From: a virus
DNA: 61,978 bases
Virus record (IMG/VR): IMGVR_UViG_3300037042_000313
Span: 1-61,978 of that record
Reading direction: 5' to 3' (one strand)
The position numbers and the translations under genes were made by a program. The first letter of the stretch is position 1; each line of letters opens with the position of its first letter. Under the pieces are notes generated by a model. It searched no databases. It was not told where the DNA came from and saw only the letters and a list, made by a program, of their open reading frames with translations. Shown piece after piece: positions 2,634 through 57,158 of the stretch.

Positions 2634-2870
2634 ATGAACAACAGAGTGAACAACCGCAACCTTGATTGGTCTGAGTGCCCCCTATGCGGGGATGATGTGA
2701 ACTCCGAGCGCATCGGGCTCGGCTACGTATTGTGCATGTGCTGCGGTGAGGAAGCAGCCCAACAAGTCAAGCACACCATCGTGCCCATGAACAAGTCGAA
2801 CTACATCTACGTCAGTCCCGGTAACCTAACATTGTTAGCCCAACTCAACCCCAAGAGGACCACAGCATGA
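2634..2870 (+). CDS. Small zinc-ribbon protein, 78 aa
   Basis: Start ATG 2634 follows a GAGGGGGGATGAG purine-rich site. The sequence has CPLCG (residues 15-19) and CMCCG (near 35-39), two Cys pairs typical of a zinc ribbon or treble clef, so metal binding is likely. The partner and function are unknown; such early phage proteins often bind DNA or host RNA polymerase, which is only inference here. A dispersed palindrome (2827-2837) lies within the coding sequence, and the stop overlaps the next start (ATGA). Confidence 0.8.
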   Translation: MNNRVNNRNLDWSECPLCGDDVNSERIGLGYVLCMCCGEEAAQQVKHTIVPMNKSNYIYVSPGNLTLLAQLNPKRTTA

Positions 2871-3115
2871 ACATCGACCGCAACACACTAGAAGCGCAAT
2901 ACATAGAACGCATCCTAGAAAGCATGGACTTGGATACGTTGGTAATGATTGCTCAAGAACACCTAGAGGGTGAGTTCAAGAAGTTCTCAGACGAAGAACT
3001 GCACAGCGAAGTAGCCATGCACTACCCCGACTTGCTCGACTTAGAGGAAACCGACTGGAAACAAGAGGGCCGTGACCTTGAGGACTTCGACATGCACACG
3101 AAGGAAGCACGATGA
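2867..3115 (+). CDS. Acidic hypothetical protein, 82 aa
   Basis: This strongly acidic protein (many Glu and Asp, especially residues 48-75) starts at an ATG overlapping the preceding TGA, with AAGAGGA upstream. It looks helical and shows no motif. Very acidic small early phage proteins can be DNA mimics or inhibitors of host DNA-binding proteins, but nothing here proves that. Its TGA overlaps the next ATG. Confidence 0.75.
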   Translation: MNIDRNTLEAQYIERILESMDLDTLVMIAQEHLEGEFKKFSDEELHSEVAMHYPDLLDLEETDWKQEGRDLEDFDMHTKEAR

Positions 3116-3250: not shown

Positions 3251-3367
3251 ATGTTAGTTTTCTACAGTGGGAAACTGATCGTCATCGAGACGAACCTAGA
3301 GTGGGCACTGCCCTACTGGAAACGCCGCAAGGCATCAGACAAACGCATTACTTTCATCATCAACTAA
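3251..3367 (+). CDS. Small hypothetical protein, 38 aa
   Basis: The start ATG lies inside the palindrome at 3246-3256 and is preceded by GAAGGGAGAG. The product (MLVFYSGKLIVIETNLEWAL at the start) has a beta-like hydrophobic N-terminus and a basic C-terminal half (KRRKASDKR). Not recognised. The tight packing and ribosome site support it being real despite its size. Confidence 0.55.
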   Translation: MLVFYSGKLIVIETNLEWALPYWKRRKASDKRITFIIN

Positions 3368-3393
3368 CCAAGCCAACACCAAGGAGAAATGAC

Positions 3394-4593
3394 ATGTGGG
3401 GATCAAACAGCACCATGAACAACCTGCCGCACGTACGCGAGTACGACCACGCACTCAAGATACTCAACACCACCAAGCCAATCAGCGGCAGTGGGCACAA
3501 CGCTGGGCGCGTACCTCTCGGTGCGCGTAAAGATGTGAGTAAGTATTGGGCTAGGTCGGGCTCGGTGGATGCCACCGATGTGGAGTTCATCCTCTACCAA
3601 ACGCCCATCATCACGTACAAAGCAGACGGGCGCATCATCGTCAGCATGGGCTCATGGAACAGCATCACCACCCGTGAGTTCATCAACACCATCTTGCGCG
3701 TCTCATGCTATGCCAAGAGTGGGAAGCCTGTGATTGAGTTGCACGGGCCAAGGAATGAAGACGGGACAGGCAACCCCAAGTCAATCATCCCTCATGCGGG
3801 AATCCTCCTGCGGTGCAACAAAACGCCCGACTCAAACTCCCAACCAGTTCTCACCTTCGACACCGAGGCCAAGCCCGTCATCATGGGCTACAGCATCAAC
3901 CGAGCCAAGGCTAACAATGTTAGAAAACGCTATTCGGAGTTCCGCAAGTACCTCAAGACAACAATATCCCTGCGCAAAACGCAGGTAGAGATAACGCACA
4001 CTTGGTACCACGGGATGAGACAGGCTGAGACCGAACCGACCTTCTACGATGCCATCGAGTACACCATCGGCGAGGTTGCCGACGGGCTCGGGATTGTCAA
4101 AGCCACATCAGAAAACGGGCTCAACCGCAGCCGAGTGAATCAGGCCGAGTGGAACCAACTGCACCGCAAGCCAGTGGGTCACATCCGTCCGCAGGGGTTC
4201 AACACGTACGAGCAATGGATTGCTCAGTACACAGCCAAGTGCGAGGAGTTCTTTGGTCTGGTCAAGAACAACCAGCCGGAGGAGACAAAGCACGCCAACT
4301 TCTACAAGGCGTTTTTAGTTCTGCTATGTATGCACGCACCGAACAGCCGACAGGCGCACTCAATCGAAGACCCATCTAAAGTGGTGAGCACTACGCCGAG
4401 GGACATAGAGACGAACTTTGAAGGAGCGTTCCGCAGGTACTACGCTGCTGATATCTTGGAAGAAGTAGCCATGAAGGGCGGCGTGCCACCGAACAAGACC
4501 TACATCGAGTGGATGTGGATGCACAACAGAGAAACCGTTAGCCAAGCAGAGCAGCGAGAGGTGGAAGACAAGAAGACTTCTATCCGCCTTTGA
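3394..4593 (+). CDS. Hypothetical protein, 399 aa
   Basis: I chose the ATG at 3394 because AAGGAG (3381-3386) sits seven bases upstream; the frame is open back to 3301 but that part overlaps the previous gene. It is the largest product of the P1 operon and is not recognised. It is soluble, of mixed alpha/beta composition, with several Trp in the C-terminal region (EWMWMHN near residue 375). No nucleotide-binding loop or nuclease signature is visible. A dispersed palindrome (3912-3922) lies within it. Operon position makes an early regulatory or host-interaction role likely, but this is inference. Confidence 0.8.
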   Translation: MWGSNSTMNNLPHVREYDHALKILNTTKPISGSGHNAGRVPLGARKDVSKYWARSGSVDATDVEFILYQTPIITYKADGRIIVSMGSWNSITTREFINTILRVSCYAKSGKPVIELHGPRNEDGTGNPKSIIPHAGILLRCNKTPDSNSQPVLTFDTEAKPVIMGYSINRAKANNVRKRYSEFRKYLKTTISLRKTQVEITHTWYHGMRQAETEPTFYDAIEYTIGEVADGLGIVKATSENGLNRSRVNQAEWNQLHRKPVGHIRPQGFNTYEQWIAQYTAKCEEFFGLVKNNQPEETKHANFYKAFLVLLCMHAPNSRQAHSIEDPSKVVSTTPRDIETNFEGAFRRYYAADILEEVAMKGGVPPNKTYIEWMWMHNRETVSQAEQREVEDKKTSIRL

Positions 4594-4630: not shown

Positions 4631-4659
4631 TTGACATTAGAGGCTATTTGTGGTATACT
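4631..4659 (+). promoter_or_regulatory. Sigma70-type promoter P2
   Basis: TTGACA (4631-4636), a 17-base spacer and TATACT (4654-4659) nearly match consensus. The flanks are almost the same as at promoter P1 (ATTTGCTTGACATTAGA before, ATAGGTT-AGTGGGAATTTG after). It drives the AAA+/VWA operon. Confidence 0.93.
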
Positions 4660-4689: not shown

Positions 4690-4724
4690 GTTAGGTTTGG
4701 ATGGGCCAGACCTAACATTGTTAG
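4690..4724 (+). promoter_or_regulatory. Leader stem-loop plus palindrome, copy 2
   Basis: GTTAGGT (4690-4696) pairs with ACCTAAC (4710-4716) over a 13-base loop unlike the loop at copy 1, followed by CTAACATTGTTAG (4712-4724). The stem is kept and the loop differs between the two leaders, which points to selection on structure. Confidence 0.7.
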
Positions 4725-4750: not shown

Positions 4751-5815
4751 ATGGCTGAGATCAACTTTGGTAAGACCGTTACCCTGAAGCAAGCGGCAAC
4801 GCTTATCCGTACGAACCCAGAGACACGCTTCCTCTTGCAAGGCGAGCCGGGCATCGGCAAGAGTTCTTTGCTTGAGTCCATTGCAGGTGGGCTGGGTTAC
4901 GAACATGCGTATATCGACGTACCCAATATGGACCTCGGTGACATTGCAATGCCCGTGATCGATCACGATAACAAAGTTACACGCTACTACCCGAACGCTC
5001 GGTTCGGTGTGCATACGGGCAAGCCGTTGGTCATCATGCTCGACGAGTTCTCGAAGGGCGCGGACCCGGTGAAGAACATGCTCCACCCGATGTTGGAGAA
5101 GGCGAACCCCCGACTCGGCGACATTCCACTGGCTAAGGACACCATCGTTTTCCTCACGGGCAACCTGTCCACCGACGGCGTAGGCGACAGCCTCAAAGCG
5201 CACTCGCGTAACCGACTCGTTGCCGTTACTGTGTCCAAGCCCAGCGCAGAGGAGTGGATCGAGTGGGCGATCAACAAGGGCATCGAGGCCGAGGTCATCG
5301 CATGGGTGAATCAGTACCCCCACGCCCTCGCTTCCTATACCGACGCTGCCCAAGGGGATAACCCCTACATCTACCACCCACGCAAAACGCAGCACGGGTT
5401 TGTCACCCCACGTAGCCTTGAGACTGCATCTAACATTGTTAGAACACGCAAGTTGAACGACACCGACAGCGTTATCGCTGCTCTGTCAGGTGCAGTGGGT
5501 GAGAGTGCAGCCCGTGATATGCAAGCGTACATCGAGTTCAGCGATCAACTCCCAACGTGGGAGGCGACGATCAAGAACCCAGAGACAACGCCTGTGCCTA
5601 CGTCACCAGCAGCATGTGCCATCGTGTGCTTTGGTGCTATCGCACGTATGACCAAGGAGACGATCACCCCGTTCATGAAGTACCTCGAACGCTTCGATCC
5701 AGAGTGGCAAGCCGTGTTCGCAATCAACATCGCCAAGGCACCAACCAAGCAATCAATCGCGTTCAGCAGCAAGGCGTTCGCCGACTGGGTTGCAAAGAAC
5801 CAAGACTTGCTGTGA
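4751..5815 (+). CDS. MoxR/CbbQ-type AAA+ ATPase
   Basis: A 354-aa AAA+ ATPase. Walker A is GEPGIGKS (residues 31-38), Walker B VIMLDE (94-99), and the sensor-1 strand is IVFLTGN, followed by an arginine-containing RNRLVAVTV segment. This pattern belongs to the MoxR/CobS/CbbQ group, whose members form hexameric remodelling machines working with a von Willebrand A partner. That partner is encoded two genes downstream (6033). The ATG lies after TTAGGAG in the P2 leader. A dispersed palindrome (5431-5441) sits inside the gene. The substrate is unknown. A porphyrin chelatase role, as in CobS/CobT, is unlikely in a phage; protein remodelling is more plausible. Confidence 0.88.
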   Translation: MAEINFGKTVTLKQAATLIRTNPETRFLLQGEPGIGKSSLLESIAGGLGYEHAYIDVPNMDLGDIAMPVIDHDNKVTRYYPNARFGVHTGKPLVIMLDEFSKGADPVKNMLHPMLEKANPRLGDIPLAKDTIVFLTGNLSTDGVGDSLKAHSRNRLVAVTVSKPSAEEWIEWAINKGIEAEVIAWVNQYPHALASYTDAAQGDNPYIYHPRKTQHGFVTPRSLETASNIVRTRKLNDTDSVIAALSGAVGESAARDMQAYIEFSDQLPTWEATIKNPETTPVPTSPAACAIVCFGAIARMTKETITPFMKYLERFDPEWQAVFAINIAKAPTKQSIAFSSKAFADWVAKNQDLL

Positions 5816-6027
5816 GGGTCAAGCAATCAAGTCACTACCCCGATGACACGGGGACCCACACCTACAAAGTGTGGGTTGAACCAAACTTTCCGGGCGGGGA
5901 TAAACCCTCCACGTTCCGGGTGTACCGTGGCCTTGGGTACTGGAACCGCAAGCAGTTGCTAGCGGAATTCCCGTACCACGAAGAACACATCGCCATTGCA
6001 ATGGCTAAGTTAGCAACACAGGAGTGA
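5812..6027 (+). CDS. Small hypothetical protein, 71 aa
   Basis: Starts with GTG overlapping the ATPase stop (GTGA), so it is probably translated by coupling. The product has aromatic and charged residues (TYKVWVEPN, TFRVYRGLGYWNRKQ) suggestive of a small beta-rich fold. It lies between the ATPase and the metallopeptidase-VWA gene and could be an accessory part of that module; no family is recognised. Confidence 0.65.
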   Translation: MRVKQSSHYPDDTGTHTYKVWVEPNFPGGDKPSTFRVYRGLGYWNRKQLLAEFPYHEEHIAIAMAKLATQE

Positions 6028-6032
6028 TAACA

Positions 6033-7283
6033 ATGTTAGAAGAACGCAAACTGCAGAAGGCGAAGATCAGCCTGATGCGCAATCCGAAGTTCGCCCTGTG
6101 GTCGGGCATCCTGATGGTCGGCAAGACCAGCGTGGTGGACAACATCCCAACCGCTTGCACCAACGGACGGGACGAGCAGTACGGTCGGGCTTTCGTTAAG
6201 TCCCTGCCCGACAAAGAACTCTCGTTCCTCGTACTGCACGAGGCATTGCACAAAGCACTGCGGCACCTGACCACGTGGCGGAAGTTGCACGATGAGAACG
6301 CGAAGCTCGCCAATGCAGCGTGTGACTACGTGATTAACCTGATGCTGCTCGACCTCGATCCGTCAGGCGAAGCGATCACCATGCCCAAGATCAAGGACGG
6401 TCCCGAGAAGGGCAAGCCGATGGGCTTGATCGACGCTCGGTTCAAGGGGATGAACGCCAAGCAAGTGTTCGACCTGCTCAAGCAGGAGCAGCAAGAGGGT
6501 GAGGACGGGATTCCCGATGACGGAAACGGGAACCCCGTTAACGGGACTGGGCAGGTGCCGAAGGATGGTGCGGGGTTGGACGACCACGACTGGGACGGTG
6601 CCGCCGAGATGACCGAGGGTGAGCGCAAGCAACTCGAACGGGAAGTGGATCAGGCTATCCGTCAAGGGATCATGGCTGAGAAGAAGGCAGGTAGGGGTGC
6701 GGGCAACCTGAGCCGCGAGTTGCAGGACTTGCTCGAACCCAAGGTGAATTGGCGCGAGGCATTGCGTGAGTTCGTTAAGTCTACGTGCCACGCTAAGGAT
6801 GCATCGTCATGGCGTCGGGTCAATCGCCGCTTCCTCAGCACGGGTGTGTATATGCCGAGCATGATCGGCGAGAAGGTCGGGCACTTGGTCATCGCTGTGG
6901 ATACGTCAGGCTCGGTTGGTGAGAAGGAGTTGGCCGAGTTCCTGTCCGAGGTCAAGGGTGTTGCCGAGGAGGTCAACCCCGACAAGGTGGACTTGATCTA
7001 TTGGGATTCACGAGTTGCAGCGCACGAGGAGTACGAGGGAGGTGGGGATGTTTCTAACATTGTTAGCTCGACCAAGCCCAAGGGCGGTGGCGGTACATCG
7101 CCGAGTTGCATCTCTGAGTTCTTGGCTAACAAGAAGATTACTCCCGAGTGCGTCATCGTCCTCACCGACGGCTACGTGGGTTCAGATTGGGGTCATGGAT
7201 GGACGGCTCCGGTACTCTGGGCCATCGTGGGTGGGAATACTGTTGTCGCGCCGAATGGCAAGACGGTTCATGTTGGAAGTTAA
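6033..7283 (+). CDS. HExxH metallopeptidase-like plus VWA domain protein
   Basis: A 416-aa two-domain protein. The N-terminal domain carries HEALH (residues 69-73), a zinc HExxH motif, followed by ANAACDYVIN (94-103), where Asp98 could be the third ligand. This fits the DUF2201 putative metallopeptidase family. A Gly/Asp-rich linker (about 155-200) leads to a C-terminal von Willebrand A domain with MIDAS DTSGS (290-294), a GGGGTSP segment and VLTDGY. The start is ATG 6033, eight bases after AGGAG and inside the palindrome 6028-6038; an upstream GTG at 6024 is less likely. It is the expected partner of the MoxR-type ATPase. The substrate is unknown. Confidence 0.87.
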   Translation: MLEERKLQKAKISLMRNPKFALWSGILMVGKTSVVDNIPTACTNGRDEQYGRAFVKSLPDKELSFLVLHEALHKALRHLTTWRKLHDENAKLANAACDYVINLMLLDLDPSGEAITMPKIKDGPEKGKPMGLIDARFKGMNAKQVFDLLKQEQQEGEDGIPDDGNGNPVNGTGQVPKDGAGLDDHDWDGAAEMTEGERKQLEREVDQAIRQGIMAEKKAGRGAGNLSRELQDLLEPKVNWREALREFVKSTCHAKDASSWRRVNRRFLSTGVYMPSMIGEKVGHLVIAVDTSGSVGEKELAEFLSEVKGVAEEVNPDKVDLIYWDSRVAAHEEYEGGGDVSNIVSSTKPKGGGGTSPSCISEFLANKKITPECVIVLTDGYVGSDWGHGWTAPVLWAIVGGNTVVAPNGKTVHVGS

Positions 7284-7293
7284 GGAGAACGAA

Positions 7294-7515
7294 ATGGTTG
7301 TACTTTCATTTAACTACGGGGAGTTTGTTCTCCCTCCCAAGGATGCCATCACCATCATGGAGATGCTGCAGAAGGCAGAGAAGTACGAGACCAAGTACAT
7401 AAGCGGTGGGGATAGCACCCACCACATCTACACGAACAACGATAGTTTCACCGCCAAGGTAATTAGCGATGACATGTATCGCATGGCTAAGTTGGCTGGC
7501 AAGCCAGAGAAGTAA
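7294..7515 (+). CDS. Small hypothetical protein, 73 aa
   Basis: ATG 7294 follows AAGGAG at ideal spacing; an in-frame ATG at 7270 lies inside the previous gene and has no such site. The product begins VVLSFNYGEFVLP and has a helical middle (ITIMEMLQKAEKYE). It shows no motif. It is part of the ATPase/VWA operon. Confidence 0.7.
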   Translation: MVVLSFNYGEFVLPPKDAITIMEMLQKAEKYETKYISGGDSTHHIYTNNDSFTAKVISDDMYRMAKLAGKPEK

Positions 7516-7638
7516 CACCCGAGATGCACGGTAACACCAACAAAGTTATCGTGCGCCCATAACCCCCGCCAGTTCCCCCCGCCACCGGTCGGACACCGGT
7601 AACAATGTTAGATATAAATCAATCATCAGGAGTTAGTT
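7516..7638 (+). other. Short intergenic stretch with palindrome
   Basis: These 123 bases contain a near-palindrome CAACAAAGTTA (7538) and the perfect palindrome TAACAATGTTA (7600-7610), then AGGAG for the next gene. No clear promoter or terminator is seen, so readthrough from P2 is expected. Confidence 0.5.
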
Positions 7639-8502
7639 ATGTCTATTAGCGCATCAGCAGTATTAGTTGAACTCAACATCTCAGTGTGGCCCGCAAGCAA
7701 GATCGACCGCGAGACCACTGAGCGTGTCAACTTCGACGCATCAGCAGTGTCGAACGCAAGCCAGACCAAGAAGAACCTGTTCGCAGGTACGGGTCTGCGT
7801 AAGGACATCGAGAAGTTCGCCGCTCGTGTTCGCCTGTACCACAACCTCAACACGCTGCCGTGGGCAGACAAGGGTGAGCGCCTCGCGCCGACCAAGTTGT
7901 TCATCGAGTACAAGGCAGCGATGAATACGTTCGAGTCCCAATTCCACGGTATGTGCAGCAACTTCTTCGTGGAGTATCCGCGTCTGGTTTCGGAAGCACC
8001 GACCAACTTAGGCAAGCTGTTCCGCGCCGACGACTACCCACCAATCGAGGAGGTGCGGGAGAAGTTCGCCTTCCGTAGATCAACGAATCCTCTGGCGGAC
8101 GCTGGAGATTTTCGCTTAGACATACCAGCGCAGGACTTGGCTGAGATTCAGGCGTCGTACGAGGAGAAGTTCAATGAGCGTCTGGCCGAGGCGATGAAGG
8201 CACCGTGGGATCGACTGCACAAGATGCTCACGGGCATCAGCGACAAGCTGACCGATGACACGGCTGAGGATAGCGACGTACCCAAGAAGCGGTATTACGA
8301 CAGCCTCATCACCAACCCGCTTGAGTTGTGCGACTTGTTGACCAAGCTCAACGTGACCAACGACCCCAAGCTGGAAGAGGCGCGTCGGCAGTTGGAACTA
8401 ACAATGTTAGCCACTGACATTGAGCGTATCAAGGAGGATGCAGATACACGCAGCAGCGTGAAGTCCAAGGTCGATGCGATCTTGAGTAAGTTCGAGTGGT
8501 AA
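7639..8502 (+). CDS. DUF3150-like protein, 287 aa
   Basis: The N-terminus (VLVELNISVWPASKIDRETT, residues 9-28) resembles what I remember of DUF3150, a family often found beside MoxR-type ATPases and VWA proteins. The rest is highly charged and predicted helical, with probable coiled coil in residues 150-200 and 235-285. The ATG follows CAGGAG. A palindrome (8399-8409) lies in the coding sequence near the 3' end. Together with the ATPase and the metallopeptidase-VWA protein it probably forms one functional module. The family assignment is from memory and uncertain. Confidence 0.6.
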   Translation: MSISASAVLVELNISVWPASKIDRETTERVNFDASAVSNASQTKKNLFAGTGLRKDIEKFAARVRLYHNLNTLPWADKGERLAPTKLFIEYKAAMNTFESQFHGMCSNFFVEYPRLVSEAPTNLGKLFRADDYPPIEEVREKFAFRRSTNPLADAGDFRLDIPAQDLAEIQASYEEKFNERLAEAMKAPWDRLHKMLTGISDKLTDDTAEDSDVPKKRYYDSLITNPLELCDLLTKLNVTNDPKLEEARRQLELTMLATDIERIKEDADTRSSVKSKVDAILSKFEW

Positions 8503-8516
8503 TCAGGAGAAACGAA

Positions 8517-9389
8517 ATGGTACTAGGATTTAACAACGCCAATGTTCGCCTAAGCGTGAAGCTCGCCGAGAAAGCCGCTCAACGAGAAGCACAAGAGGAG
8601 AGCCCGTTTGATGTCCCGTCCATGCTCAAGACTGTCATCACTAGGCTAGCGACAGACAAACCGCTGTGGGACTTCATCGCTTTTAGCGTAGTGAATCGCA
8701 CCCAAGTAACCACCTTCTACGTAGAGAAGGATGGCGAGCGGCTGGGTGAGATCGGTTTTGACTGGCACGGCAGGAACTACTGCATCTACGTCAAGAACAA
8801 GCGCATTGCCGATGCTCTATCACGTAGCGACAGGTACAAGACTGCGGACATTGACAAGGCCGTATTAAAAGTCAAGAAAATGTTTGGTGTTATGACTACC
8901 AAAGAGCGCCTAACGGATGCATCCGTGAAGGCGGCTAACGTAACCAACAACGCAGCCAATGCCAAGTGGTCCCAGCTTCGAGATGTTGAAGGCAGGATCA
9001 CACGGGTTGCTAATCAGTACGTCATGGAGGAGGGGTTCCCGGTGTTTTTAGAGTGGCTGAAGGCCCAAGACACCCACAAAACTAGAGATGCTCTGTTAGG
9101 TGTAGATAACAAAGTTAGCCTAAGCATCGAGATGCTAACCATCCAAAAAGTTCGAGATCACTTCAACGAAGGCAAGGCGGTGTTGGTCATCAAAGACGAC
9201 GGAAAATATATTGTCAAAGTGGGTGACAAAGTGGATTTGTATGATGACAATACGCTCCCTCAAGAGTTGTGCGGCAAGTTAGGTATGCTGAAGCTGATAG
9301 AGGCCGAGCAGTTCGTGACTGACACAGGCTGCCGCATCAACGACGAGACGTTCGTTCTTATATTAGAAGAGGTGAAACATGAAGATTGA
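8517..9389 (+). CDS. Hypothetical protein, 290 aa
   Basis: ATG 8517 follows CAGGAG (8504-8509) and is preferred over a GTG at 8496 inside the previous gene. The protein is soluble and alpha/beta, with a basic middle (VKVKKMFGVMTTKERL) and an Ala/Asn-rich helix (NNAANAKWSQLRDVEGRI). No known motif is seen. It is co-transcribed with the ATPase-VWA-DUF3150-like genes and carries another palindrome (9107-9117). It may belong to the same module. Confidence 0.75.
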   Translation: MVLGFNNANVRLSVKLAEKAAQREAQEESPFDVPSMLKTVITRLATDKPLWDFIAFSVVNRTQVTTFYVEKDGERLGEIGFDWHGRNYCIYVKNKRIADALSRSDRYKTADIDKAVLKVKKMFGVMTTKERLTDASVKAANVTNNAANAKWSQLRDVEGRITRVANQYVMEEGFPVFLEWLKAQDTHKTRDALLGVDNKVSLSIEMLTIQKVRDHFNEGKAVLVIKDDGKYIVKVGDKVDLYDDNTLPQELCGKLGMLKLIEAEQFVTDTGCRINDETFVLILEEVKHED

Positions 9390-56548: not shown

Positions 56549-56968
56549 TTAACTAGCACGCGTTATGCCACGCGGGTCTTGAACTACCGCCTCAACTGAG
56601 TCATCGTTGATGATGCGGAATTCACGGTTGTGAATCTTCAAACGGGTACCAGAATTGGGTCGGCAGATAACGAAATCGCCTTCCTTACACGACGGACCAC
56701 TAGGGAACCGTGTCTTATCCTTGTACGCATCGGGACCAACCTTGACTACGAACAATACTGGGGTCAGCATCTCCTCGTAGTACATGGTTTTGGAGTCCTT
56801 GATGATTCCAATTTCGCTGTTCTGATACTCTTCAATCGCATCAGGTACAACACACAAAATATGGAACGTCTTGGGGTCAGGCAACTGCTTGGCTTTTTGG
56901 TCTGTATCCTTGTTCAGGAGGCCAGACAAATCTACCGCAGCGTTTTTGAACTTAAGAAGGTCACTCAT
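56549..56968 (-). CDS. GroES-like co-chaperonin, 139 aa
   Basis: Start at ATG 56968 (MSDLLKFKNAAVDLSGLLNK), overlapping the previous gene. TFHILCVVPDAIEEYQNSEI, PVLFVVKVGPDAY, CKEGDFVICRPNSGTRLKIH and EFRIINDDSVEAVVQDP follow the GroES beta-barrel. A longer N-terminus than GroES. It may assist host GroEL in folding the capsid protein (compare T4 gp31), but chaperonin pairing is not proven by the sequence. Confidence 0.72.
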   Translation of the reverse strand: MSDLLKFKNAAVDLSGLLNKDTDQKAKQLPDPKTFHILCVVPDAIEEYQNSEIGIIKDSKTMYYEEMLTPVLFVVKVGPDAYKDKTRFPSGPSCKEGDFVICRPNSGTRLKIHNREFRIINDDSVEAVVQDPRGITRAS

Positions 56969-57158
56969 CGTCGGATTCCACTTTCTGCACAAGGTCGTTG
57001 ATAATGTTTTCTGCAAGGTTTAGACCAAGGATTACCCCGCAGACGTGACGGTACTCGTCATGACTAACTGCTCGACCGGCAGAGATGTAAGCTACCCGGT
57101 CATCCCGTAGCTTATGCATCTCTTTGACCACTACCGCTAGTACTTTATATCCGTCCAA
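56961..57158 (-). CDS. Small hypothetical protein, 65 aa
   Basis: Start TTG 57158, preceded by AAAGGG. Small helical protein (YKVLAVVVKEMHKLRDDRVA, LGLNLAENIINDLVQKVESD). Overlaps the GroES-like gene start. Not recognised. Confidence 0.65.
   Translation of the reverse strand: MDGYKVLAVVVKEMHKLRDDRVAYISAGRAVSHDEYRHVCGVILGLNLAENIINDLVQKVESDDE

Follow-up and report, generated by a model that had tools for sequence, protein, structure and literature searches.

A conserved four-gene phage module around a MoxR-type ATPase and a metallopeptidase-like VWA protein, with a possible remodelling role early in infection or during replication

The DNA analysed here, called the window, is the whole of a 61,978-base record of an uncultured virus, a freshwater phage with a podovirus-like genome. 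The terminase, portal and ejection protein genes all lie on the - strand, and the + strand arm carries the genes for DNA polymerase A, an exonuclease, a helicase and a primase. Near the head of this arm, positions 4751-9389 hold six ORFs, all of which were confirmed (Table 1). An earlier, sequence-only reading had described them as one operon consisting of a MoxR ATPase, a small protein, a HEALH-VWA fusion, a second small protein, a DUF3150-like protein and a protein of about 290 aa. This list stands as far as the ORFs are concerned, with a likelier start for the fusion gene and with the second ORF set apart as a weakly matched accessory. A nucleotide search with the module against phage records gave no match. 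Elsewhere in the window, the largest ORF (1750 aa), the only one above 1,000 aa, matches a DarB-like family, and the structural arm holds, at 56552-57016 (- strand), a gene related to that for the GroES co-chaperonin in HTVC023P-type pelagiphages.

Table 1. Genes and regulatory features of the module and its upstream region
Feature	Position	Strand	Remarks
Sigma70-like promoter	4631..4659	+	TTGACA-17-TATACT with extended -10 (TG)
Leader hairpin of 11 pairs, downstream of the promoter and ahead of the MoxR gene	4690..4716	+	Terminator-like or leader structure
Predicted MoxR-type AAA+ ATPase	4751..5815	+	354 aa; Pfam, PHROG, invariant residues
Small accessory ORF	5812..6027	+	71 aa; not a core part
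Metallopeptidase-like domain fused to MIDAS VWA (DUF2201_N + DUF2201)	6033..7283 (ORF 6024-7283)	+	Pfam, residues, model
Small protein	7294..7515	+	73 aa; C-terminal AGKP motif
DUF3150-like, mostly helical protein	7639..8502	+	287 aa; fold and annotated relative
Protein of about 290 aa, no known family	8517..9389 (ORF 8496-9389, ATG 8517)	+	Divergent; conserved C-terminal region

The first gene product is predicted with confidence to be a MoxR-type AAA+ ATPase. It scores above the cut-off with Pfam AAA/AAA_5 (PF00004/PF07728), matches PHROG 1297 at 2.6e-48, and carries the Walker A, Walker B, sensor 1 Asn and conserved arginines of the AAA fold. Walker A/B, N138, R155 and R221 are invariant across 78 distinct relatives, and the best PDB match of the family profile is midasin (2.7e-13).

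We regard the 71-aa ORF that follows as accessory: no clear ribosome site precedes it, its GTG start codon runs into the MoxR stop, and its one match is weak (39% over 49 aa, E 0.024) and comes from the equivalent position in a single close relative (three loci); no gene was seen at this position in other relatives (L092, L124). The 73-aa protein, with its conserved C-terminal motif, is present in most, not all, relatives. Its start and those at 7639 and 8517 are each preceded by an AGGAG ribosome site. Because most homologues of the fusion begin with MxEER, the most likely start of its gene is the ATG at 6033, behind AGGAG at 6021-6025, rather than 6024; the residue numbers used below (H72, E73 and so on) are counted from the GTG at 6024.

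The fusion contains two Pfam domains in one protein, DUF2201_N (PF13203; 1.8e-31, 110.2 bits against a cut-off of 23.2) and the DUF2201 VWA domain (PF09967; 1.9e-17, 63.9 bits against 26.4). The latter shows the DxSxS...T...D motif of a MIDAS and a VWA fold: in the AlphaFold2 model (pLDDT 78.9), this part matches VWA domains with Z up to 12.8 in a PDB fold search, and the best Foldseek match of the model is the MIDAS domain of MDN1. The PDB fold lists for the whole fusion are filled by VWA domains and barely probe the N-terminal domain. In the model the HExxH motif lies within helix 63-80 and D101 within helix 93-111. All 97 distinct full-length relatives keep H72, E73, H76, D101 and the MIDAS residues, 94 of them also keep H81, which like D101 is a candidate third ligand position, and a signature HExxHxxxxH...NxAxDxxxN is common, with few departures, to distant phage relatives. 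We thus regard the N-terminal domain as a putative zinc metallopeptidase, given the HExxH motif and the conserved candidate third ligand.

The catalytic Glu is gone in Atu_ph07 (L251; HQILH) and ZX86 (L253; HMLWH), which retain the His/Asp ligand positions. These two fusions are likely pseudo-peptidases, so that proteolysis would not be universal in the family. Such proteins would also suit a metal-handling remodeller that does not cut at all, with HExxH binding a metal or serving a structural purpose; metal insertion of the NorQ/NorD type offers a precedent. The invariance of the Glu in the 97 clade relatives and its presence in most distant phages speak against this explanation, as does the lack of an identified metalloenzyme client in the module, and we consider it quite improbable.

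Two observations concern the annotation and surroundings of this family. PHROG 1314, to which the metallopeptidase-VWA proteins belong, bears the label 'HNH endonuclease', which many RefSeq phage records carry and which looks like a misannotation. In unrelated phages, moreover, an HNH or homing endonuclease gene repeatedly stands between the genes for MoxR and for the metallopeptidase-VWA protein, as in L086, where the translation was judged by eye, and, according to the record labels, in PA5oct (gp145; L165), SBP1 (gp099; L254) and P7_Pc (orf124; L255).

The last two proteins of the module are less readily assigned. The DUF3150-like protein has relatives at 56-91% identity and a mostly helical AF2 model (pLDDT 69), whose best BFVD match is a 'DUF3150 domain-containing protein' (E 1.4e-13); a DUF3150-annotated relative shares 27% identity with it. 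The PF11348 profile that defines DUF3150 matched none of 26 members and, at E <= 1, none of six records, MinM2 included. Fold and annotated relative thus bear out the identity given by the sequence-only reading and the profile does not, hence the name DUF3150-like rather than family member. PDB sequence and fold searches returned no significant match for this protein. The 290-aa protein has relatives at 24-76% identity, with a conserved C-terminal region YDDNTLP...GKLGMLKLVE...GCRV, and belongs to no known family in Pfam and PHROG scans. Scattered matches of single members of both families to Pfam and PHROG entries were treated as chance.

Conservation of gene neighbourhood shows that these genes travel together in freshwater-type loci. 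Among loci fetched with the fusion, the MoxR, fusion, DUF3150-like and 290-aa genes occur in that order and on one strand in 46 of 46 adequately flanked loci; the same arrangement is found in 36/36 flanked loci fetched with the DUF3150-like gene. In a wider set of 25 flanked loci, MoxR, fusion and DUF3150-like genes were present in every case and the 290-aa gene in 24. The 46- and 36-locus sets share contigs with each other, and possibly with the wider set, so these counts are of loci and not of independent phages. Several gene orders were found in the wider set: MoxR, fusion, DUF3150, 290; DUF3150, MoxR, fusion, 290; and fusion, MoxR, DUF3150, 290. Conservation as a four-gene unit is far beyond chance, and the fact that the genes stay together despite reordering argues for a shared function. 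A lack of joint conservation among the neighbours would have refuted the sequence-only reading; the neighbours proved to be conserved, the MoxR gene and the fusion gene stay together, and their Walker, HExxH and MIDAS residues are intact. A genome-contig scan with the fusion yielded one MAG contig, and a scan with the DUF3150-like family yielded none. On MAG contig L249 the MoxR, fusion and DUF3150-like genes lie side by side, and the 290-aa profile gives a weak line (E 0.0018).

The promoter that the sequence-only reading had placed ahead of the operon is borne out by a consensus-based (sigma70) analysis. It ends 92 bases before the MoxR start and is one of the two best sigma70-like sites in the window. 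A comparable promoter precedes the MoxR gene in 69 of the 74 distinct upstream regions, whose mean best promoter score is 11.6 against 8.1 for shuffled sequences; the site is thus more than chance. A twin promoter with the same TTGACA-17-TATACT and an extended -10 lies at 2336-2364, upstream of the ORFs at 2867-3115 and 3301-4593. Since the promoter of the module is strong, conserved and of host type, it suggests that the module would be transcribed early by the host polymerase.

The core pair of ATPase and fusion is widespread in phages: tblastn at E 1e-5 found relatives of the fusion in 696 phage records and of the ATPase in 318. Three phage records, OQ594354.1, OL906435.1 and PP438419.1, name different hosts, share a length of 65,014 and the same matches, and may be one phage. 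In 2021, jumbo phages of group 2.2 were reported to combine a MoxR ATPase with a vWA protein that carries an N-terminal metallopeptidase (Iyer 2021; PMC7824862), a likeness that we draw by architecture and not by that paper's own accessions; the pair also occurs in PA5oct, phage G and Atu_ph07. The same arrangement, an AAA+ ATPase followed by a metallopeptidase-VWA protein, is found in gp24 and gp25 of N4, which are core genes of the Schitoviridae (PMC4193335, PMC7650795), with homologues in many N4-like phages at about 22-32% identity. The suggestion of a possibly new system therefore does not hold for the core pair. The window phage differs from the jumbo phages in being podovirus-like with about 62 kb, in having the DUF3150-like and 290-aa proteins as constant partners, and in the host-type promoter and replication-arm location of its module, and from the Schitoviridae in that no ORF of vRNAP size, an N4-like hallmark, is present in the window. 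Profile scans of two N4-like loci (LUZ7 and SBP1) revealed no homologue of the DUF3150-like or the 290-aa protein, a 290-aa line at E 0.67 being at chance level. In Synechococcus phage MinM2 and Planktothrix phages Pag-Yong1 and Pra-JY27, the cluster is ordered MoxR-DUF3150-VWA, with 27% DUF3150 identity and no 290-aa homologue found; the 290-aa profile had no match in MinM2, nor in the viewed stretches of six phages (L250-L255). In some phages the MoxR gene is accompanied by that of another AAA protein: LUZ7 ORF36 (L162 4106-4945) and the ZX86 'ClpP-like protease' (L253 5118-5870), a name that looks wrong, are homologous AAA ATPases (PF00004) encoded just upstream of it.

No function for the MoxR/metallopeptidase-VWA pair was found in the literature searched, nor any paper naming DUF3150, or MoxR together with DUF2201, most subscription papers lying outside the search. 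Thus, the core pair is known and the four-gene unit with its two constant partners seems undescribed. A PADLOC scan, which covers known anti-phage defence proteins, gave weak P-loop matches for the ATPase only and none for the other module proteins; it has no bearing on counter-defence, the speculative action against host defence that the sequence-only reading had raised.

The published proposal for the jumbo-phage pair, with an archaeal precedent in ATV, is a virion assembly role (PMC7824862), in which MoxR and VWA proteins would act as a chaperone that remodels structural proteins and the metallopeptidase as a maturation protease that processes them. The record of PA5oct carries an ESI-MS/MS note for its MoxR protein (gp149), as for that phage's structural proteins, which fits a link to the virion and runs against an early or replication-phase reading; in phage RPP1, virion protein genes lie near the gp24/gp25 homologues (PMC4193335). 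Against assembly stands a comparison of structural genes. Pelagibacter phages HTVC027P and HTVC023P and phage 023Pt_psg01 resemble the window phage in major capsid (61-65% identity), portal (40-45%) and terminase (48-53%), and the MoxR and fusion profiles found no match at E 0.1 in the whole records of these three phages; DSL-LC04 likewise lacks MoxR and fusion. The core pair is therefore not needed to build such a capsid. Moreover, the module lies in the replication arm, apart from the - strand structural genes and behind a strong host-type promoter, features that set it against the jumbo-phage proposal, and gp24 and gp25 are middle transcripts in N4 (PMC4193335). Virion assembly is accordingly unlikely here. 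An early or replication-phase role fits better, because phages whose structural genes are close do without the core pair and because the promoter is conserved, and the placement of the module in the + strand arm supports the same role.

A rival to the reading preferred below would have the machine act in the replication phase, clearing or remodelling proteins that sit on phage DNA; the AAA+/metalloprotease pairs that repair DNA-protein crosslinks offer a functional parallel. The module lies near DNA polymerase and/or helicase genes in unrelated phages, namely the window phage, LUZ7 and SBP1 (where gp24 and gp25 adjoin helicase and polymerase genes), Rhizobium phage TM3_14A and Atu_ph07. Set against this, no DNA-binding domain was found, the module proteins are acidic except for the accessory 71-aa ORF, and phage G, PA5oct and V18 show no polymerase or helicase linkage in the stretches viewed. 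We consider this specific task a doubtful but arguable possibility.

The known systems closest to the module are midasin (Rea1/MDN1), NorQ/NorD and RavA/ViaA, which likewise combine a MoxR-class AAA ring with a MIDAS VWA domain. They differ from it in their clients and in that the accessible parts of their descriptions mention no zinc-metallopeptidase domain in the VWA partners. That VWA domain and ATPase are both best matched by midasin, where AAA ring and MIDAS domain cooperate, supports a MoxR/VWA remodeller. In NorQ/NorD, a finger of the VWA domain inserts into the pore of the MoxR ring, the linker of the VWA partner is remodelled by ATP hydrolysis, and MIDAS residues are required for the target and not for ring binding (PMC13036017, PMC9976466).

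The reading that we prefer, at a probability of roughly 0.5, is that the module encodes an ATP-driven remodeller of the MoxR/VWA kind, which is equipped with a zinc-protease domain, is served by two dedicated partner proteins, and acts early or during replication and not in the building of heads or tails. By comparison with known MoxR/VWA systems, the MoxR protein would form a ring motor on which the VWA domain docks, with the MIDAS metal holding an acidic patch on the target. By analogy with NorQ/NorD, ring motion would be passed through the linker to the N-terminal metallopeptidase domain, so that the MIDAS-held target meets it and may be cut, or at least bound. The DUF3150-like and 290-aa proteins may be dedicated partners, whether adaptors, regulators or clients. 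The module's own strong host-type promoter would drive early production of the machine, which would be active during host takeover or DNA replication.

Like the core pair, CobS and CobT are an AAA+ and a VWA protein, and they come up in several phage papers, which might point to a cobaltochelatase-like pair in cobalamin metabolism. The VWA protein here is DUF2201 and not CobT, and the window has no CobN-sized ORF (its one ORF above 1,000 aa being the DarB-like one, in a contig that may be incomplete); we hold this explanation to be highly implausible.

Extending the preferred reading, one may speculate, tentatively and with low expectation, that the module represents a new class of AAA+ protease, in which an early phage MoxR ring drives a VWA-bearing zinc protease, the MIDAS picks the target and the DUF3150-like and 290-aa proteins serve as adaptors, the whole dismantling a host or replication complex. 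If proteolysis is real, the design of the module would be unlike that of AAA+ proteases of the Clp, Lon and FtsH types. N4-like phages have the pair among their core genes, and hundreds of phage records contain it. The conserved set of four genes, the promoter ahead of it and the lack of the core pair alongside close structural genes argue against the one published proposal found, virion assembly, and make the timing and the target of this machinery directly testable.
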